The notes below the pieces were generated by a model, which worked only from the letters and a program-made list of their open reading frames with translations, had not been told where the DNA came from and did no database searches. A stretch of 59,238 nucleotides of DNA from positions 22,652 through 81,889 of the forward strand of contig QHVE01000058.1 in NCBI GenBank assembly GCA_003223455.1, read 5' to 3'. Every line of letters starts with the position of its first letter. The stretch's first letter is position 1. This DNA is from Gemmatimonadota bacterium. Lineage in GTDB: Bacteria > Gemmatimonadota > Gemmatimonadetes > Gemmatimonadales > Gemmatimonadaceae. Below are positions 6,873 to 43,900 of the stretch, one piece after another. Both the position numbers and the translations under genes were made by a program.

Positions 6873-6982
6873 CGAGCGCGGAAGAGGGGCCGTCGGTCCA
6901 GCGGGCGGACGCCGCGCGGACTCACACGAGAAGGTTAATGCGCGCATCAGGCGACCGCACCGATTCCACCGAGTCCCGTCGC

Positions 6983-7014
6983 CTGACAATCGGACCCCCG
7001 AGCGTCTACTTTTG
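6983..7014 (+). promoter_or_regulatory. Predicted leaderless promoter of tyrS
   Basis: CTGACA (6983-6988), an 18-base spacer and TACTTTTG (7007-7014) match a TTGACA-type -35 box in five of six positions and a perfect TAnnTTTG -10 box, the form known from Bacteroides and Flavobacterium. The ATG follows 4 bases after the G, so transcription should start at or within a base or two of the start codon. No Shine-Dalgarno sequence precedes the ATG. Confidence 0.65.
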
Positions 7015-7018
7015 TGCC

Positions 7019-8314
7019 ATGCAGACGACTGGAGCGGTGCTCGACGAGCTTCGATGGCGCGGGCTGGTGTACCAGCACACCGACGGCGTGGCCGACGCGC
7101 TCGAGGCTGGCCCCGTCTCGGCGTACATCGGCTTCGACCCGACGGGGAGCAGCCTGCACGTCGGCAGCCTCGTCCCGATCATGGTGCTCGTGCACCTGCA
7201 GCGGCACGGGCATCGGCCGGTGGCTCTGGTGGGCGGCGGGACGGGAATGATCGGCGACCCGAGCGGGAAGATGTCAGAGCGGCAGCTGCTCACGGCCGAG
7301 CAGGTGGCGGAGAACGCGCGCGGCATCCACGCACAACTCGAGCGCTTCCTGGATTTCGACGGACCGAGCGCGGCACGGATGCGTGACAATGCGGCGTGGT
7401 TGACACCGTTGCATCTCGTGGACTTCCTCCGCGACGTCGGGAAGCACTTCACGGTGAACTACATGCTCCAGAAGGACTCGGTGCGCTCGCGCATGGACGC
7501 CGGGATCTCGTTCACCGAGTTCACCTACATGCTCCTCCAGGCATACGACTTCCTCGAGCTGCGGCGTCGCGACGGCGTGACACTTCAGCTGGGCGGGAGC
7601 GACCAGTGGGGAAACATCACGGCGGGAATCGAGCTGATCCGCCGTGTCGATGGTGCCGACGCACACGCACTCACGATGCCGCTCGTCACGACGTCGAGCG
7701 GCGCGAAGTTCGGAAAGACGGAGGCGGGCGCCGTCTGGCTCGACGCGGACCGCACGTCACCGTACGCGTTCTATCAATTCTGGCTGGGGACGGAGGACGC
7801 GGACGTGGGGCGGTATCTGCGCTACTACACGCTCCTCGCGCGCGCCGAGATCGAAGCGCTGGACGCGGAGACGGTGTCCGCGCCGGAGCGTCGCGGCGCG
7901 CAGCAAGCGCTGGCCCGGGACGTGACGAGGCGTGTACATGGGGACGCGGCGCTCGCGGCGGCCGAGCAGGTGTCCGGATTCTTCTTCGGCGGACTCGAGG
8001 CGCGCGAATTGAGCGAGGAGGCTTTCGCGATTCTGCGCGCCGAGGCTCCGTTCACCGAGGTGAGTCGCGGAGAGCTGTCGATCGAAGGCGATCCTGCGAT
8101 GTTCGATGCTGTTCGACTGCTAACAGCATCGGGTTCGGCCGCATCCAATGGTGCGGCAAAGCGGCTGCTCGAGCAGGGAGGCGTCTCGGTGAACAAGGAG
8201 AAGCTGACAGCCGCCGATCGATATCTGCCCGCCGGCAACGTGCTGCTCCGCGGCGGGCACGTCGTCGTCGGCAAGGGGAAGCGAGACTACGCGTTGCTCC
8301 GAGTGAAGGACTGA
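7019..8314 (+). CDS. tyrS: Tyrosyl-tRNA synthetase
   Basis: This 431-residue class I synthetase charges tRNA-Tyr. FDPTGSSLHVGS carries the HIGH-equivalent motif (HVGS, residues 47-50), LGGSDQWGN is the tyrosine-binding loop, and KFGKT (residues 230-234) is the KMSKS-equivalent. The C-terminus holds an S4 RNA-binding domain (RLLEQGGVSVNKEKL). Length and order are normal for the TyrZ/TyrS bacterial group. The ATG at 7019 was chosen because the protein begins in the family register there and a -10 box ends just before it. It converges on the flippase gene, with a terminator between. Confidence 0.97.
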   Translation: MQTTGAVLDELRWRGLVYQHTDGVADALEAGPVSAYIGFDPTGSSLHVGSLVPIMVLVHLQRHGHRPVALVGGGTGMIGDPSGKMSERQLLTAEQVAENARGIHAQLERFLDFDGPSAARMRDNAAWLTPLHLVDFLRDVGKHFTVNYMLQKDSVRSRMDAGISFTEFTYMLLQAYDFLELRRRDGVTLQLGGSDQWGNITAGIELIRRVDGADAHALTMPLVTTSSGAKFGKTEAGAVWLDADRTSPYAFYQFWLGTEDADVGRYLRYYTLLARAEIEALDAETVSAPERRGAQQALARDVTRRVHGDAALAAAEQVSGFFFGGLEARELSEEAFAILRAEAPFTEVSRGELSIEGDPAMFDAVRLLTASGSAASNGAAKRLLEQGGVSVNKEKLTAADRYLPAGNVLLRGGHVVVGKGKRDYALLRVKD

Positions 8315-13900: not shown

Positions 13901-15796
13901 TCAGTGCGCTCCGGCGGTCAGCGAGGCCGAGTCGGCCGGCTCGCCCTCGTCGCGGCGGAGCTGGGCCGCATGCAGGCGATGATACACGCCGCGCAGCGCC
14001 AGGAGCTCCGCGTGCGTGCCGCGTTCGACGATCTCGCCGCGCTCCAGCACGAGGATCTGGTCCGCGTGCACGACCGTCGACAGGCGGTGCGCGATGACGA
14101 ACACCGTGCGGCCGGCCAGCAGACGGTCGATCGCCTCCTGCACCAGCCGCTCCGATTCCGTGTCGAGGGCCGACGTGGCTTCATCGAGGACGAGGATCGG
14201 CGGATCGGTGAGCAGAGCGCGCGCGATCGCCAGCCGCTGCCGCTGGCCGCCGGACAGCCGCGTCCCGCGCTCGCCGAGCACGGTGTCGTAGCCCTGTGGC
14301 AGCTCCGAGATGAAGCCGTGGGCATTCGCGGCGCGCGCCGCCGCGGTCACCTGGTCGTCGGTGAACCGGCCGACCGCGCCGTAGGCGATGTTGCTTCGCA
14401 CCGTGTCGTTGAACAGCACCGTGTCCTGGCTCACGATTCCCGTCAGGCCGCGCAGCGACGCGAGCGTGATCTCGCGCGTGTCGACCCCGTCGAGTCGAAT
14501 GACGCCCGACGTCGGCTCGTAGAAACGTGGGATGAGGTCCACCAGCGTGCTCTTCCCCGCCCCGCTCGCGCCGACGAGGGCGACGACCTCTCCGCGCCGC
14601 GCCACGAAGCTCACATTGCGCAGCACCGGCTCCTCGCCGTAGGAAAAGCTCACCCGCTCGAAGGCGATCGCGTCGCGCAGCTGGGTCACGGTCCGCGTGC
14701 CGCTGTCGAGCTGAGTCTCCGTCGGCTGGTCGAGCACCTCGAACAGCCGCTCCGCCGACGCGAGCGACTGCTGCGCCGTCGTCGGCGCCTGCGAGAGCTG
14801 CTTGAGGGGCGGCAGCAGGCGCATCACCATGATCATGAAGGTGATGAGCGTCGCGCTGTCCATCGCCTGGGGTCCGCCGAGCAACACCTCGCGCGCACCG
14901 ATCCAGAGGATCATCATCGCGACCGAGACCCCGATCAGCTCCGTCATCGGCTGCGACAGCGAGGCGATGCGCGTGATGCGCACCATCCCCGACGAGTAGC
15001 GATGGCTCGCCTCCATGAAGCGCGAATCCTCGTACGCCTCGCCGCGGAACGACTTCACGAGCCGCACGCCGCTCACCGCCTCCTGGAGCACGCTCGTGAT
15101 CTCGCCGTAGTCGCCACGCAACCGACGGTGTCCCTTCCGCAGCTTCCGCAGCACGGGCTGGAGGGCGAGCGTGAGCAGCGGCGCGATGACGAGCGCGACG
15201 ACCGTGAGTCGCACCGAGTAGCTGAGCAGGATCACCAGCGTGCCGACGATCTGCGCCAGGTTCTGCAGCGTGCGCGTCACGAGCTCCGTGATCAGCGCCT
15301 TCGTCTGCTCGGTGTCCGACAGCACGCGCGAGATGATCTGCCCCGTCTTCGTGCGCTGGAACCAGCCCAGGGGCAGCCGCTGGAGGTGCCGGAAGACACC
15401 GTCGCGCAGATCGCGCGTGACGTTCTCCTGGAGCGACGCGCCGAACTGCCCCGCGAGCCAGACGAACACGTTCTTCAGCGCCACGATCGCGATGATCGCG
15501 ATCATCATCGTCTCCACCGACCCGAGCCGGTCGGCGGGATCGAGGAACGCGCCGACCATCCGCTCATGCGCCGCCGTGATCCAGCCCGGTGAGGCCGCGG
15601 GGATGAGGCGCTGCGCGCCGAACAGTGCGTTGAGGAAAAGCGGGAGGAGCGTGAACGAGAAGACATCCAGGCCGGCGGCGATCACGTTGGACGCGATCGT
15701 CCCGACCATCCGCCACGCGTGCGGACGAAGGAAGTGCAGGAGCCGGCGATACACGGTCAGCGCTTCGGCGTGAGCAGCGACACGGGGAGTATGCAC
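13901..15796 (-). CDS. MsbA-like ABC exporter (fused membrane and ATPase domains)
   Basis: This ABC half-transporter of up to 631 residues exports lipids or glycolipids. The membrane domain occupies roughly residues 20-330 with six helices. The ATPase domain has GASGAGKST (Walker A), LSGGQRQRLAIARAL (signature), ILVLDEATSALD (Walker B) and IAHRLSTV (H-loop). The longest frame starts with GTG at 15796, overlapping the upstream gene by 40 bases; a GTG at 15754, three bases after that gene's stop, is an equally plausible start. Context with a glycosyltransferase and an LpxL-like acyltransferase supports an MsbA-type role. Confidence 0.93.
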   Translation of the reverse strand: MHTPRVAAHAEALTVYRRLLHFLRPHAWRMVGTIASNVIAAGLDVFSFTLLPLFLNALFGAQRLIPAASPGWITAAHERMVGAFLDPADRLGSVETMMIAIIAIVALKNVFVWLAGQFGASLQENVTRDLRDGVFRHLQRLPLGWFQRTKTGQIISRVLSDTEQTKALITELVTRTLQNLAQIVGTLVILLSYSVRLTVVALVIAPLLTLALQPVLRKLRKGHRRLRGDYGEITSVLQEAVSGVRLVKSFRGEAYEDSRFMEASHRYSSGMVRITRIASLSQPMTELIGVSVAMMILWIGAREVLLGGPQAMDSATLITFMIMVMRLLPPLKQLSQAPTTAQQSLASAERLFEVLDQPTETQLDSGTRTVTQLRDAIAFERVSFSYGEEPVLRNVSFVARRGEVVALVGASGAGKSTLVDLIPRFYEPTSGVIRLDGVDTREITLASLRGLTGIVSQDTVLFNDTVRSNIAYGAVGRFTDDQVTAAARAANAHGFISELPQGYDTVLGERGTRLSGGQRQRLAIARALLTDPPILVLDEATSALDTESERLVQEAIDRLLAGRTVFVIAHRLSTVVHADQILVLERGEIVERGTHAELLALRGVYHRLHAAQLRRDEGEPADSASLTAGAH

Positions 15797-17278
15797 TCCT
15801 CCGGCGTCACCCCACCGTGCAGAAACGAGCCGCGGTACCGGCTCTGATACTCCCGCAGCTTCGTGGGATAGACGAAGAAGCTGTCGCCCGTGGCGAGCAG
15901 TGTGTTGGTCCCGAGCCCGCGTCGCGGAAGCTTGAGGTCATCCTCTTTCTTGAACAGCAGCGCCAGATCAGGATCCTCGGCACGCAGATCCTCGCCGAAC
16001 TTGTAGCGAAGGTTCTGCGTCGCGTCGCGCTTGGCGAACACGGTGGCCGGCGTGTGGCAGTGGATCGAGCCGTGATCGCTCGTGACGAGCACCGTGACCT
16101 TCCGTCGCGCCGCCTCCTGGAGCACGCTGAACAGCGCCGAGCGCTTGAACCACTGGAGCGTGAGCTGACGCAGCGCGATCTCGTCGCGCGCCACCTCGTA
16201 CAGGATCGCCGACTCCGAGCGACCGTGCGTGAGCAGATCGACGAAGTTGAACACGAACGCGCTGATCCCGTCGGGCGCGATCGCGTTGGCGAGGCGGCGC
16301 TCCAGCTCGTCCGCCTCGTACGACGTGGACACCTTGTCGTACTTGACCGGCACCTCGTGCTTCAGCTCCACGAGCTGCGACTCCAGGAGCTCGCGCTCGT
16401 GCGCGTTGAGCGTCTCGTCCTCCTTCTCTCCCCACCAGTCGGGGAAGCGTGCCGCGATCTCGTTCGGGAACAGCCCGCTGAACAGGGCGTTCCGCGCGTA
16501 CGGCGTCGCCGTCGGCAGCACGCCGAAGTAGTGCGTGGTCTCGATGTCGAACAGCGGCGCGATCACAGGCTCGAGCGCCTTCCATTGATCGAGCCGCAGG
16601 CAGTCGATCACGATGAACACGGCCGCGCGATCCCGTTCGATGACCGGCAGCAGGAACTCCTGGACGATGTCGATCGACAGGGGCGGACGGTCTCCCTCCA
16701 GGTCTCGCAGCCAGGCGGGATATGCCGTTGCCATGAACGAGGCGAAGGCGCGTCGCAGATCGGGAAACAGTCCCTGAAGCGAGTCGTGCAGCCCCATCTC
16801 GTTCGCCGAGGTGAGGTCGAGGTCCCACTGCACGAGCTCCAGGTAGCGATCGATCCAGCCACGCCAGTCGAGGTCCCGAAGCGACTCGTTCTGCATCGCG
16901 CGGAAGCGGTCGACGAACGACCGCGCGATCGCCTGCTGCCGGATTCGAGGTCCCTCCAGCATGCGCGCCACGAGCGCGTACACCTGGCGCGGCGACACCG
17001 GCTTCACGAGGTAACCGGCGATGTCGTTGCCGAGTGCCTCGGTGAGCGTGGAATCCTCCTCGCTCTTCGTGACCATGACGACCTGCAGGTTCGGGTCGAT
17101 GTCGCGCAGCTCGGTGAGCGACTCGAGTCCGCGCGTCCCGGGCATCTGCTTCGGCGGCGTCGTCGGCGTTCGTCGCGGTCTCGACCTCGAAGCCCTTATC
17201 ACGCAAGAAGATGCGATGAGGCTCGAGCAGCTCCGCCTCGTCGTCGACCCAAAGGACGGCCTTCACTTGGTGCGGCAT
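15757..17278 (-). pseudogene. PorX-like response regulator with PglZ domain, frameshifted in the receiver domain
   Basis: Translation from ATG 17278 gives VKAVLWVDDEAELLEPHRIF, the start of a CheY-like receiver with its acidic pair. It then runs to VETATNADDA and changes frame near 17150. The second frame resumes at MPGTRGLESL and continues with the receiver Thr (MVTKSEE) and Lys (YLVKPV), then a PglZ domain (VIDCLRLDQW, TSDHGSIHCHTPATVF) to LTPKR at 15757. The segment between, which should hold the phosphoacceptor Asp, is absent. Apart from this join the gene looks intact. PorX controls type IX secretion in Bacteroidota, and its PglZ domain is a zinc phosphodiesterase there; whether this homologue does the same is unknown. 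Confidence 0.82.
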
Positions 17279-17282
17279 GGTT

Positions 17283-17313
17283 CAAACGTAGCCGTGCACG
17301 AAATGGCGAGCAA
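17283..17313 (-). promoter_or_regulatory. Predicted leaderless promoter of the PorX-like gene
   Basis: On the minus strand TTGCTC (17313-17308), 17 bases, then TACGTTTG (17290-17283), a perfect TAnnTTTG box, and the ATG only 4 bases further on. No ribosome-binding site is present, so the transcript should start at or next to the start codon. Confidence 0.6.
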
Positions 17314-17946: not shown

Positions 17947-17976
17947 TTGCTCACCCCAAGTCGCGAACCCTATCTT
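17947..17976 (+). promoter_or_regulatory. Predicted leaderless promoter of the DnaB-like gene
   Basis: TTGCTC (17947-17952), an 18-base spacer, TATCTT (17971-17976), and ATG after 5 bases. The -35 hexamer is identical to that of the PorX-like gene. There is no room for a ribosome-binding site. Confidence 0.6.
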
Positions 17977-17981
17977 GGACG

Positions 17982-18833
17982 ATGACGCGCGGCGCCGACA
18001 TCTCCCCCCTCTCGCTTCTGCTCGGCCGCGTCGATGCGGTGGCGGACGGCGCGGCGCCGATCGACACCGTCCCCTCCGGCTTCCCCAGTCTGGACAAGCT
18101 CCTCGGCGGCGGCCTGCGGCGAGGCGACCTCGTGGTGCTGGGCGGCGACGTGGGCAGCGGCAAGAGCGCGCTGGCCCTCGCGATCGCCCTGCGCGCGGCG
18201 GGCGCGCGTCGATCTGCCGTCTTCTATTCGGGGGAGATGAACCCGGAACGCGTCCTCGAGCGAGTCCTGGCCATCGAAGGGCGCACGCGCATCGACGATC
18301 TGCGCCGCGGCACGCTCGACGAGGCCACTCGGGCAGGGGTCGGGGCGGCGGCCATTCGCTTGCGCGACGAGCTTCCGATCGTCGAGAGAGTACCCGCTGG
18401 CGGCGTCGCGGCGATCGCCGAGGAGCTTTCGGCGCTCCGAACCATGGAGCTGGTCGTTATTGATGGGCTGGACGCGCTGCTGCCCGGTGCGAACAGCACC
18501 GAGGAGGAGGAGGCCGCCACGATCCGTGCGCTCAAACGGCTGGCGCTGGAGGCACGCACCGCCGTGCTCGTGACATCTCCGCTGCCCCACCTCGCGGCGC
18601 GCGACGACCGCCGCCCGGTGCTCGACGACTTCGGCGCGCGCGGCGCCGTGAAGGAGCGCGCCGACGTCGTGCTCGGTCTGTTTCGGGAGGGGATGTACGA
18701 CGGCGCCCGCGGCATCGAGGGGGCGACCGAGTTGCTGGTGCGGAAGAACAGAAACGGGGGTACGGGTTATGTGGACCTGTACTTCTACGAGCAGTGGATG
18801 CGTTTCGAGGACATGCTCGATCCCGACCGCTAG
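17982..18833 (+). CDS. Stand-alone DnaB-type RecA-fold ATPase (helicase C-terminal domain only)
   Basis: This 283-residue protein is essentially the C-terminal motor domain of replicative helicase DnaB without the N-terminal primase-binding domain. It shows PSGFPSLDKLLGGGLRRGDL, Walker A GGDVGSGKSAL, a DnaB-like EMNPERVLERVLAIEGR, Walker B LVVIDGLDAL, and the DnaB tail RRPVLDDFGARGAVKERADVV followed by RKNRNGGTGYVDLYF. The Walker A is GDVGSGKS where DnaB usually has ARPxxGKT. It may be a ring ATPase acting on DNA or a KaiC/RadA-like regulatory ATPase. A lipoprotein gene starts 13 bases downstream, so they probably share a transcript. Confidence 0.85.
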   Translation: MTRGADISPLSLLLGRVDAVADGAAPIDTVPSGFPSLDKLLGGGLRRGDLVVLGGDVGSGKSALALAIALRAAGARRSAVFYSGEMNPERVLERVLAIEGRTRIDDLRRGTLDEATRAGVGAAAIRLRDELPIVERVPAGGVAAIAEELSALRTMELVVIDGLDALLPGANSTEEEEAATIRALKRLALEARTAVLVTSPLPHLAARDDRRPVLDDFGARGAVKERADVVLGLFREGMYDGARGIEGATELLVRKNRNGGTGYVDLYFYEQWMRFEDMLDPDR

Positions 18834-25075: not shown

Positions 25076-25110
25076 TATATTCGGTAACACGCCCCCTGCC
25101 TTACGAGGAG
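25076..25110 (+). promoter_or_regulatory. -10 box and ribosome-binding site of ruvB
   Basis: TATATT (25076-25081) fits the local TAnnTT pattern; TGGCCT 17 bases before it is a poor -35 box. GAGGAG (25105-25110) lies 8 bases before the GTG start and decides it. Confidence 0.45.
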
Positions 25111-26180: not shown

Positions 26181-27122
26181 TCACGCGGCCGGCTTGAGCA
26201 TTCCGTGCATGCCGAGCCAGCGGACGAACTCCTCGAACCAACCGGTGCTGGTGGTTCCCTTCGGATACATGCCGAAGCCGTGTCCACCCTGCTCGAACAG
26301 GTGCAGCTCCGCCGGTCGCTTTGCCGCGAGCCAGCTCTTGATGATGCCCATCTCCCCGCTCCCGAAGAACGGATCATCGGCGGCGACCGCGACGAACAGC
26401 GGCGGCGCGTCGGCCGGCACGGTCATGGAACCGACAGGTCCGTAGATGTCACCGACAAAGGCAGGTTTCGCGTCCTGCCCGGCGAGGGCTGTGGTCATGG
26501 TCAGCATGGCGCCGGCAGAGAAGCCGACCATGCCGATGCGGTTCGGATCGACGTGCCATTCGGCCGCCCGTTTGCGGATCAGGGCGAATGCGGCGCGCGC
26601 GTCCTCGAGCTGAGGCGCGATGCTCGCCGCCATTGCCTGAGGATCGGACGGCCGAGGTGGACGGGCGGCAGCGCCCGAGAACATCTCACGCATGGACTTC
26701 TCGAAGCCTGCCATGTCTGCCGGCGTCTGCACGAGGCGGTACTTCAGCACGAAGGCGGCGACACCCTTGGCCGCGAGCGCCTTGGCGACGTCCGATCCCT
26801 CGTTCTCCATCGACAGGGTGCGGAAGCCCCCACCGGGCGCCACCACCACTGCGGTCCCGGACGCGTTGGCCGGATCCGGCAGATAGGGTGTCAGCGTGGC
26901 CACCGTGACGTTGCGCGCAAAGAGGCTCCCATACTGGCTGTGCCAGGACTCTTTCGCCGTTGCGCCGGGAAGCGGCCCAGTTCCCAGCTCGATCGCGTTC
27001 GGCTGCGCCGGTGTCGGAACCGGCGTCATCTTGTCCTTCTGGGCGAGCGCGGGCGTGGCCAGCGCACACGTCGCTGCCATGCCTATCGCAGTCAGTCGTC
27101 CGATGCGCAACACTGTATTCAT
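26181..27122 (-). CDS. Exported alpha/beta-hydrolase (esterase/lipase, acetylxylan-esterase-like)
   Basis: This 313-residue protein has a clean signal peptide (RLTAIGMAATCALATPALAQ). The alpha/beta-hydrolase catalytic residues are visible: nucleophile Ser in GFSAGA, Asp in VAADDPFFG, His in GGHGFGMY. VVVAPGGGFRTLSMENEG provides the oxyanion loop (GGG). This order matches the secreted BD-FAE/axe-type esterases that deacetylate plant or microbial polysaccharides; the substrate is inferred only from family. ATG 27122 was chosen for the signal peptide and the upstream GAGGGG site. A hairpin lies in its leader. Divergent from queA. Confidence 0.88.
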   Translation of the reverse strand: MNTVLRIGRLTAIGMAATCALATPALAQKDKMTPVPTPAQPNAIELGTGPLPGATAKESWHSQYGSLFARNVTVATLTPYLPDPANASGTAVVVAPGGGFRTLSMENEGSDVAKALAAKGVAAFVLKYRLVQTPADMAGFEKSMREMFSGAAARPPRPSDPQAMAASIAPQLEDARAAFALIRKRAAEWHVDPNRIGMVGFSAGAMLTMTTALAGQDAKPAFVGDIYGPVGSMTVPADAPPLFVAVAADDPFFGSGEMGIIKSWLAAKRPAELHLFEQGGHGFGMYPKGTTSTGWFEEFVRWLGMHGMLKPAA

Positions 27123-27146
27123 CTCCGTTCCCCTCGTCAGTGTGTC

Positions 27147-27180
27147 ATTGCCCGATTCAGCGGGTCGGCGGTCGGGCAAT
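27147..27180 (-). promoter_or_regulatory. Perfect 9-bp inverted repeat in the esterase leader
   Basis: ATTGCCCGA (27147-27155) and TCGGGCAAT (27172-27180) are exact reverse complements separated by 16 bases, 25 bases upstream of the esterase ATG. On the minus strand CATATT, a possible -10 box, overlaps the distal arm. The repeat could be an operator (two half-sites about 25 bases centre to centre) or a leader hairpin. Confidence 0.45.
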
Positions 27181-27234
27181 ATGAGATGCGCGTCTCGCCT
27201 GTGATAGGCTCCTGCGACCCGGCGACCGCGCGAC

Positions 27235-27265
27235 TTCACAGCGCTCGGCACCGGCCATCTATCTT
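27235..27265 (+). promoter_or_regulatory. Predicted leaderless promoter of the queA operon
   Basis: TTCACA (27235-27240, five of six bases of TTGACA), a 19-base spacer, TATCTT (27260-27265), then ATG of queA after 6 bases. This would drive the long run of genes from queA onward. No ribosome-binding site precedes queA. Confidence 0.55.
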
Positions 27266-27271
27266 CATGCG

Positions 27272-29857
<2,586 letters not shown>

Positions 29858-31396: not shown

Positions 31397-32074
31397 GTGC
31401 TCGAGCCTACCGTGAACACCCCGCCGGCGCCCGCCCGGACGCCGACCCTGCCGATCATCCATGCGGTGACGAGCGACGAGATCGTCTCGCGAGACGATTT
31501 CATCGACGTGGCCTGCGCGGTGATGGCCGCGCTCGGCGCCCGCGGTGCGCTGCATCTCCGCGCCGGCCGCATCAGCGCGGCCCGATTGCAGACGCTGGCC
31601 GGCGGACTGGAGGCGGCGCAGGCGATCACCGGTGCGTGGCTCATCGTCAACGACCGGATCGACCTCGCGCTCGGCGCGCGTGCTCGTGGTGCGCAGCTCA
31701 CGAGTCGCTCGCTGCGTGTCGCCGACGCGCGCCGCGCCGCGCCGGGGCTCGCGCTCGGCGCGAGCGTGCATTCGATCGAGGAGGCACGCGTCGCCGTGAA
31801 CGAGGGCGCCACCTGGCTCGTCGCCGGCCACGTCTTCGCCACCGAGTCCCATCCTGGCACGGAAGGGCGTGGACTCTCGTTCGTGCGCGCGTTGACGTCG
31901 GCGATGACGGTCCCCGTCGTCGCCATCGGAGGCGTGCGTCCGGAGCACTGCCGGGTACTTCGCGCGGCGGGCGCGTACGGGCTCGCCGTGATCCGTGGGA
32001 TCTGGGACGCGCCGAATGCCGAACGCGCCGCGAGCGACTATCTTTCGGCGTATGACGACGCCGCTGGTGCATGA
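31397..32074 (+). CDS. TenI/ThiE-family protein, probably thiazole tautomerase
   Basis: This protein of about 225 residues is a TIM barrel of the ThiE/TenI family. It matches TenI better than ThiE: it has GASVHSIEEA, AGHVFATESHPGTEGRGL (TenI GHVF and RGL) and VVAIGGV, but lacks the ThiE Lys after Arg (LRAG instead of REK) and the ThiE Asp and Lys that bind pyrophosphate. TenI aromatises the thiazole made by ThiG, which fits its place before thiS and thiG. A ThiE activity is not excluded. GTG 31397 or GTG 31412 may be the start. It overlaps thiS by 23 bases. Confidence 0.85.
   Translation: MLEPTVNTPPAPARTPTLPIIHAVTSDEIVSRDDFIDVACAVMAALGARGALHLRAGRISAARLQTLAGGLEAAQAITGAWLIVNDRIDLALGARARGAQLTSRSLRVADARRAAPGLALGASVHSIEEARVAVNEGATWLVAGHVFATESHPGTEGRGLSFVRALTSAMTVPVVAIGGVRPEHCRVLRAAGAYGLAVIRGIWDAPNAERAASDYLSAYDDAAGA
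32039..32046 (+). promoter_or_regulatory. Possible internal -10 box before thiS
   Basis: TATCTTTC ends 5 bases before the thiS ATG, the same spacing as the leaderless promoters elsewhere in the window, but it lies inside the TenI-like coding sequence and no -35 box is recognisable. Confidence 0.25.
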
Positions 32075-41534: not shown

Positions 41535-41594
41535 TGCCGAGGAAAGGTATCGGGATTCATCGCGCCTCGCTATGGAACCTGGGGCGCACGAATG

Positions 41595-42671: not shown

Positions 42672-43409
42672 TCAGTCCGCGAGGATCGCGCGCACGACGG
42701 CAGCCGTGTCGGTGAGATCGGCGAAGACTGCGGCCGCACCGCACGCACGCAGCTCGTCCACCGAATAGCGGCCGGTCGCGACGCCGATGGCCCGCGCGCC
42801 GATGCTCACGCCGCATTCGACGTCGGCCGGCGTGTCGCCGATGACGACGAGCTCATGGCCCGCCACGGGATGTCCGAGCGCGCGCTCGGCACGGCGGCGT
42901 GCGATCTCTGGCAGCTCCGGCCGCTCGTGATGATCCGACCCGAACGCGCCGACGACGAAGCGCTCGGGATCGATCCCCACGGCGGCGAGCTTGGCGCGCG
43001 CGCCGGAGTGGATGTTGCCGGTGAGCAGGCCGAGCACGACGTCGCCGCGCGATTCGAGTGCATCGAGCAGCTCGCGTACGCCCGGAAAGACGTGCTGTGC
43101 ATGGTCGGTCGACGCGAGCTCGTCGCGCAGCAGCGCGAGGTATCGATCGAGCACCTCGTCGAGCCGCGCATCGATGTCCGCGTCGGAGACGCCGGCGTGG
43201 CGCATCAGCTCGCGCACGATCTGCGGATCGGTCTTCCCGTCGAAGCGATGCTCGCCCGGGCCGCTCTTGCCGAAGTGCTCCTCCAGCGCCTGGAAGACGG
43301 CGCGTCGTCCCGCGCCGTCGGTCCAGAGGATGGTGCCGTCGATGTCGAACAGCACGAGGCGACGGGCGCGCGCGGGGTCCGACGCGATCATTCGAACCGG
43401 TGATGCCAT
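42672..43409 (-). CDS. HAD-superfamily hydrolase (phosphoglycolate phosphatase-like)
   Basis: This protein of about 245 residues has the HAD motifs: VLFDIDGTI (nucleophile and acid Asp), LLTGN (motif II), and VIGDTPADVECG (motif IV) with a helical cap between motifs I and II. A Lys expected near motif III may be in the GAFGSDHHERPELPEIARRRAE stretch but is not obvious. Substrate is unknown; phosphoglycolate or pyrophosphate are common in this subgroup. The ATG at 43409 has a -10 box 5 bases upstream; an ATG at 43391 is an alternative. Confidence 0.9.
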   Translation of the reverse strand: MASPVRMIASDPARARRLVLFDIDGTILWTDGAGRRAVFQALEEHFGKSGPGEHRFDGKTDPQIVRELMRHAGVSDADIDARLDEVLDRYLALLRDELASTDHAQHVFPGVRELLDALESRGDVVLGLLTGNIHSGARAKLAAVGIDPERFVVGAFGSDHHERPELPEIARRRAERALGHPVAGHELVVIGDTPADVECGVSIGARAIGVATGRYSVDELRACGAAAVFADLTDTAAVVRAILAD

Positions 43410-43412
43410 GCC

Positions 43413-43442
43413 GAAAGCTAGACGGGCGCTCGAGCGTCGCAA
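43413..43442 (-). promoter_or_regulatory. Predicted leaderless promoter of the HAD gene
   Basis: On the minus strand TTGCGA (43442-43437), a 16-base spacer, TAGCTTTC (43420-43413), then ATG. The TAGCTT hexamer ends 5 bases before the start codon. The -35 hexamer is the same six base pairs that serve the divergent promoter. Confidence 0.55.
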
Positions 43443-43465
43443 ACCAGGTGGCTGGGCGCTACCTT
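43437..43465 (+). promoter_or_regulatory. Predicted leaderless promoter of the DUF6941-like gene
   Basis: TCGCAA (43437-43442), a 17-base spacer, TACCTT (43460-43465), and ATG after 6 bases. The -35 match is weak, but its position coincides exactly with the -35 hexamer of the divergent HAD promoter. Confidence 0.45.
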
Positions 43466-43471
43466 CGCTCC

Positions 43472-43900
43472 ATGCACGTCGCCTTCGCACTCTTCGCCGA
43501 CGCGGCGAATCTCTCGCAGGAAGGGAAGCTCAACATCCTCGGCGTGTTCGACGCGCTCCAGGTCGGCACTCTTCCGGCGCTGCACCCGCGCGCGACCCTC
43601 GTGGTGCACCTCAAGGGCAGCGCGCTCGACGTCGGCTCGCACCGCGTGACGCTGCAGTGGATGAGCCCGAGCGGCAATGAGCTGTGGAAGAGCGAGGGCG
43701 AGCTGGGCGTCGCCACACCCCCGCAGGGCGTGCTCGAGATGGACTTCCCACTCATCGCGCAGCTCGACCTCCCCCTCGACCAGAGCGGAGGCTACGTGAT
43801 GCGCGTCGGCCTCGACGGCGATACGCGCGCCGAAGTAGCACTGGAGGTGCGGACGCCCGGAACACCGACAGCGGCGGCGGCCCCGAAGTGGATGTCGTAA
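43472..43900 (+). CDS. DUF6941-like small beta-rich protein
   Basis: This 142-residue protein begins MHVAFALFADAANLSQEGKLNILGVFDALQ, a pattern I associate with DUF6941 proteins (short cytoplasmic proteins of unknown role, with ALFCDxAxxSxDGKLNIxGxFD). The rest alternates beta strands (RVTLQWMSPSGNELWKSEG, GGYVMRVGLDGDTRAEVALEV). No signal peptide. Single-gene transcript with a predicted leaderless promoter; it ends 9 bases before the 20-bp repeat array. Confidence 0.78.
   Translation: MHVAFALFADAANLSQEGKLNILGVFDALQVGTLPALHPRATLVVHLKGSALDVGSHRVTLQWMSPSGNELWKSEGELGVATPPQGVLEMDFPLIAQLDLPLDQSGGYVMRVGLDGDTRAEVALEVRTPGTPTAAAAPKWMS

Follow-up and report, generated by a model that had tools for sequence, protein, structure and literature searches.

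TAnnTT promoter boxes placed directly before ATG in Gemmatimonadaceae: a candidate leaderless gene set and a sigma factor of Bacteroidota type

The promoters read by sigma-ABfr in the Bacteroidota (B. fragilis, B. thetaiotaomicron, F. johnsoniae and F. psychrophilum) carry a -7 box TAnnTTTG, with its T at -12, and a -33 TTTG element; in the numbering used for Flavobacterium the hexamer runs from T-12 to T-7 (PMC6847099). Leaderless mRNAs account for 3.7-5.5% of the mapped mRNAs in B. thetaiotaomicron and F. psychrophilum. In the survey table of Zheng et al. 2011, which lacks a row for Gemmatimonadetes, one of the 37 Bacteroidetes/Chlorobi genomes contains leaderless genes, with a share of 2.4% (PMC3160421). 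The TANNNT-led genes of Actinobacteria and Deinococcus-Thermus, described in the same work, stand in high-GC genomes and are transcribed from the start codon (+1), the first T of their -10-like box being about 12 nt further upstream. E. coli sigma70 promoters follow the pattern TTGACA-17-TATAAT. For the Gemmatimonadota, a literature search turned up neither a promoter consensus nor a map of transcription starts.

The Gemmatimonadaceae promoters analyzed here share with the sigma-ABfr promoters the TA at -12/-11 and the TT at -8/-7, together with a putative cognate sigma factor of the same type, without region 1.1 and nearly the same in region 2.4. They differ from them in lacking T-6 G-5, in their TTGAC-like -35, in the use of Shine-Dalgarno sequences and in a box that often stands directly before the AUG. 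The -10-like box, its distance from the start, the predicted +1 at the start codon and the high-GC genome are common to the TANNNT-led genes; here, however, T at -8 is required, the start is ATG only and the share of genes is smaller. With E. coli they share T-12, A-11 and T-7 and probably also a weak TTGAC-like -35 at a spacer near 17. They differ in having T-8 for A-8, and neither the own genome nor any other searched from the class yielded a full-length RpoD with region 1.1.

The window, that is, the whole stretch of DNA analyzed, comprises 59,238 nt (positions 22,652-81,889 of contig QHVE01000058.1) of a Gemmatimonadaceae draft genome (127 contigs, 4.96 Mb in total, 69% GC), whose TyrS has its closest named relatives in Gemmatimonadaceae/Gemmatimonadetes MAGs (76-78% identity). 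TAnnTT occurs 21 times on the two strands of the window and seven of these sites are followed, after 5-7 nt, by the ATG of a real gene, namely tyrS, porX-like, dnaB-like, queA, thiS, HAD and DUF6941 (Table 1), where chance would provide 0.05 sites at the window density, or 0.34 if the higher density of intergenic DNA is taken (p about 7e-8). An earlier note on this DNA had proposed such promoters, and every site that it named was present in the sequence with correct coordinates and spacings. Six sites of its list were retained; thiS had been overlooked, and the FTR1 gene, counted there as a looser fit, is a doubtful member with its gap of 9 and no further support.

Table 1. Promoter elements and genes in the window (positions are those of the window; gap, nucleotides between the end of the -10 hexamer and the start codon; spacer, nucleotides between -35 and -10).
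Feature	Position	Strand	Remarks
tyrS -35 CTGACA	6983..6988	+	spacer 18; TGACA at spacer 17-18 also in many orthologues
tyrS -10 TACTTTTG, TACTTT(TG)	7007..7014	+	followed by TGCC and ATG 7019; gap 6 from TACTTT
tyrS, tyrosyl-tRNA synthetase	7019..8314	+	TIGR00234, 366.9 bits; predicted leaderless, +1 at the A of ATG 7019
porX-like -10 TACGTTTG	17283..17290	-	ATG 17278, gap 6; same gap in 3 relatives (L093-L095)
porX-like -35 TTGCTC	17308-17313	-	spacer 17
PorX-like response regulator, PglZ domain	15757..17278	-	NF052313, 452 bits over the downstream part (15757-17145)
DnaB/RecA-like -35 TTGCTC	17947..17952	+	spacer 18; TTGCYC kept in 3 relatives
DnaB/RecA-like -10 TATCTT	17971..17976	+	gap 5 to ATG 17982; box and gap identical in 3 relatives
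DnaB_C/RecA-like ATPase gene	17982..18833	+	from family search; predicted leaderless
queA -35-like TTCACA	27235..27240	+	spacer 19; from the sequence
queA -10 TATCTT	27260..27265	+	gap 6 to ATG 27272
queA	27272..28315	+	predicted leaderless in own genome
thiS -10 TATCTT	32039..32044	+	gap 7 to ATG 32052; ThiS TIGR01683
HAD hydrolase -10 TAGCTT	43415..43420	-	gap 5 to ATG 43409
HAD hydrolase -35 TTGCGA	43437-43442	-	spacer 16
DUF6941 gene -10 TACCTT	43460..43465	+	gap 6 to ATG 43472; PF22091; overlaps divergent HAD promoter
FTR1/cytochrome c gene TACCTT	41544..41549	-	9 nt from ATG 41534; doubtful, outside enriched gaps
ruvB TATATT	25076..25081	+	likely -10 of a leadered promoter; contrast case
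ruvB SD-like GAGGAG	25105-25110	+	GTG start 25119

The divergent leaderless-type promoters of the HAD (-) and DUF6941 (+) genes overlap within about 65 bp (window 43407-43474), so that competition between the two polymerases for this DNA is expected. The window also encodes a PorX-like protein (15757-17145, minus strand), PorX being known in Bacteroidota as a response regulator of type IX secretion. The frame of this gene is broken near 17150, where a short receiver-domain stretch is missing and the frame changes by comparison with an intact orthologue of 520 aa (L095); either an error of assembly or genuine decay may account for the break.

For comparisons beyond the window, sequence samples consisted of contig starts plus a few long contigs, and genes were called with a home-made codon-model script that misplaced some starts (tyrS was called at 6938). 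It handled one genome of 73% GC (G123) poorly, and this genome contributes nothing to the pooled first-gene counts. Because an unconstrained EM search for motifs ahead of start codons strayed into codon-phase patterns, dyad and single-substitution counts took its place. The shifted pattern TAnnTT-N18-ATG was added as a control, a reversed-pattern control being weaker.

Throughout the draft genome TAnnTT-N6-ATG was found 93 times and the TAnnTT-N18-ATG control 7 times; the count of TAnnTT against distance from starts, set beforehand as the test that could overturn the earlier note's proposal, showed enrichment near starts. In a 1.05 Mb sample, ATG followed TAnnTT at gaps of 5, 6, 7 and 8 nt in 9, 22, 13 and 8 cases, against about 4 elsewhere, and there was no peak for GTG/TTG or for permuted motifs of equal composition. 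The first genes of six genome samples had 42 TAnnTT boxes at gaps 5-7 before ATG where 6.3 were expected, and substitution of T1, A2, T5 or T6 brought the figure down to background or about twofold. TAnnAT was counted 7 times (3.2 expected) and the E. coli-type requirement for A at -8 was not found; the T at -8 makes this box distinct from TATAAT. At gap-6 sites C was common at -9 and A rare at -10. Concerning the TG with which the earlier note had extended the box to TAnnTTTG, it did not prove to be part of the motif: TTTG was present in only 6 of the 93 gap-6 sites and T-6 in 32 of them. TAnnTTTG as a motif was discarded as too rare (n=16 in 1.05 Mb).

A TTG at a spacer of 16-19 accompanied 11 of 74 leaderless-type sites, against 1-4 in control windows (about 4-fold). 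The register of TTG, TGA and GAC pointed to TTGAC at spacer 17-18, and TTT at that place was without enrichment. The TTG-like -35 that had been claimed at 16-19 nt is thus present as a weak TTG(AC), weak in most sites. The -33 TTTG element of Bacteroidota was not found here, the -35 being TTGAC-like at 16-19 nt. The box also has an orientation. In co-directional intergenic DNA there were 120 TAnnTT in sense against 39 in antisense, and 26 against 4 when a TTG 18-22 nt ahead was included; in convergent regions TAnnTT was nearly absent (1 and 2). Because TAnnTT is directional in intergenic DNA, it is the general -10 box, of which the leaderless placement is one use.

With a probability of about 0.88, judged from sequence comparison, the housekeeping RNA polymerase, equipped with a Bacteroidota-type sigma factor, uses these sites as core promoters, a subset of which is leaderless. 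A short primary sigma of the sigma-ABfr type would recognise T-12 A-11 n n T-8 T-7 plus a weak TTG(AC) 16-19 nt upstream. In some of the promoters, which by the strict box serve no fewer than about 5% of the first genes in transcription units, only 5-7 nt would separate the -10 from the AUG, so that transcription would start on the A, and the ribosome would engage the 5'-terminal AUG of the resulting leaderless mRNA directly, as for other leaderless mRNAs. The remaining genes would be leadered, many of them with a Shine-Dalgarno site.

The search for a housekeeping sigma in the own genome found no full-length RpoD, the best matches being three sigma70 paralogues of about 285-300 aa; in the class genomes searched (L233-L235, L237-L264) no full-length RpoD scored over the family cut-off and short sigma70 paralogues were found instead. 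The main sigma, sA, has about 285 aa, is without region 1.1 and has a diverged region 2.4. Its identity is 57% with Bacteroides, 59% with Algoriphagus, 52% with the second Chitinophaga paralogue and 41% with E. coli RpoD. With most of the Bacteroidota primary sigmas compared it is 55-59% identical and region 2.4 is nearly the same; the full-length RpoDs group apart, in a clade of their own (support 1.0). It is improbable, though it keeps an appreciable share of our belief, that the leaderless promoters are read by sB or sC instead of the sigma-ABfr-like sA. The other two paralogues are 45-51% identical to sA and have a similar region 2.4, and a 98% complete genome of family f7 (G148) showed no clear sA orthologue in the RpoD search, its best matches being sB- and sC-like. 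Yet sA gave the best RpoD-search score in most class genomes searched, it resembles more closely than sB or sC the Bacteroidota sigma for which recognition of TAnnTTTG is established, and TAnnTT is the general -10 box that heads housekeeping genes, all of which favours sA as the probable reader.

The leaderless placement is not evenly spread over the phylum. In 60 genomes of the family the gap-6 and gap-18 counts were 5386 and 1369. Among the genomes tallied, the gap-6/gap-18 ratio was 3.9 in the own family, Gemmatimonadaceae (f1), 2.9 in f2, 2.6 in f3, 2.2 in f4, 1.4-1.6 in f5-f10 and 0.93 in f11, which is the other class of the phylum sampled. The order therefore shows the largest leaderless excess, the other families of the class show a weak one, and there is none in f11, a family in which one genome (G130) encodes an RpoD of 562 aa plus short forms. 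In Bacteroidota loci (1.14 Mb) there was no start-linked TAnnTTTG peak, which as raw counts without gene calls is weak evidence. The earlier suggestion that the motif may be shared across the FCB group is supported for TAnnTT and for the sigma homology, and is not supported for the TG extension and for leaderless placement as a general trait of the wider group.

If the promoters were not leaderless, transcription would start a few nucleotides off and translation at a later in-frame codon, or there would be a leader of 1-4 nt. The spread of gaps from 4 to 8 would suit this, a gap of 6 being found in 39 of the 74 leaderless-type sites, but we consider it quite unlikely. The peak at gap 6 is the exact distance from a -10 to +1, so that the A of the ATG becomes +1 whether one numbers as for sigma70 or as for Flavobacterium, and it stands only before ATG (27 against 4.8 expected; 3 against 3.1 for GTG). 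In called genes the peak is in frame, with no out-of-frame peak. In addition, a later tyrS start would remove conserved sequence, since the tyrS orthologues align from residue 1-8. Of the 93 gap-6 sites, which were listed, 30 were cut out and most of these head long ORFs, some with N-termini that by eye look like TrpS, UvrB and PanD.

Conservation around tyrS is consistent with a start at the AUG. Of the 33 tyrS orthologues compared within the family (58-100% identity), 31 have TAnnnT at a distance of 4-7 nt from the start, 23 of them at exactly 6 nt, and 28 have T at -8; the same procedure at random coding places gave 5/780. A -35 of the form [CG]TGAC lies 17-18 nt upstream in about half of the tyrS loci, and [CG]TGACA in somewhat under half. 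TATAAT was seen in two orthologues. The box and gap of the porX-like and dnaB-like genes are kept in three MAGs. As to the distribution of the gene itself, the sole TyrS match in genomes of family f3 (G014, G016, G018, G020, G027) is distant, with about 32-36% identity to the window TyrS; in most other genomes of the order TyrS is more than 50% identical to it.

TAnnTT could also be a translation signal, an AT-rich, unstructured or protein S1 site, and AT-rich stretches do precede starts in Bacteroidota (PMC3155529); we regard this as very unlikely. The leaderless-type box is nearly limited to the first genes of transcription units: at gaps 4-8 it was found in the own sample in 36 of 776 first or distant genes against 4 of 408 close co-directional genes, and is thus almost absent from operon-internal genes. 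Such a site would explain neither the direction of TAnnTT across intergenic DNA at large nor the TTG 16-19 nt upstream. The queA gene also speaks against it, as the box is missing from most of the queA copies that stand behind ruvB; apart from the own copy, that of one relative out of 30 carries it. Where relatives yielded a ruvB, the distance from it to the queA downstream is in most cases no more than about 110 nt; it is 1127 nt in the own genome, where a gene on the opposite strand (26181-27239) parts the two and the queA promoter is of the leaderless type. Finally, composition or chance would make the boxes AT-rich words that happen to stand close to starts (the genome has 69% GC, and A+T content is higher between genes than within them), but this reading is already refuted to the point of being barely credible by permuted words without a peak, by the 93 sites against 7 and by the loss of the excess on single-base changes.

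Gap, frame, first-gene position, restriction to ATG, conservation and orientation thus agree with the proposal of the earlier note that these promoters are placed for a transcription start at the AUG, and from this placement we infer leaderlessness. The leaderless genes are a minority beside the commoner Shine-Dalgarno genes. No other start signal in first genes was as strong as the Shine-Dalgarno words (GGAG 60 against 11), which come first in the dyad counts, ahead of TAnnTT. The anti-Shine-Dalgarno end GGATCACCTCC was seen in the 16S genes of two genomes, the own one (other strand of the locus) and one of the same genus. By the strict box the leaderless share is about 5% of first or distant genes, which is not unusual given the share of leaderless mRNAs in Bacteroidota. 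What is new is the conservation and the box of the leaderless set, not its share.

Taken further, the Gemmatimonadales may, as a tentative proposal that we hold to be somewhat doubtful, possess a hybrid promoter code, with a Bacteroidota-type sigma, TAnnTT, a TTGAC-like -35 and no TG, and with a long-conserved, AUG-only leaderless set (including tyrS) beside Shine-Dalgarno genes. If true, this code would be a state between Shine-Dalgarno-using bacteria and the Bacteroidota that lack these sequences. The comparison indicates that the Bacteroidota-type sigma and its preference for T-8 extend past the Bacteroidota. It also offers a usable consensus, TTGAC-N17/18-TAnnTT, and a means of start-codon correction, as for tyrS, which would start at 7019 and not upstream. 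As a predicted conserved natural leaderless mRNA, tyrS could be used to test how the ribosome enters such a message in a lineage also using Shine-Dalgarno sequences.
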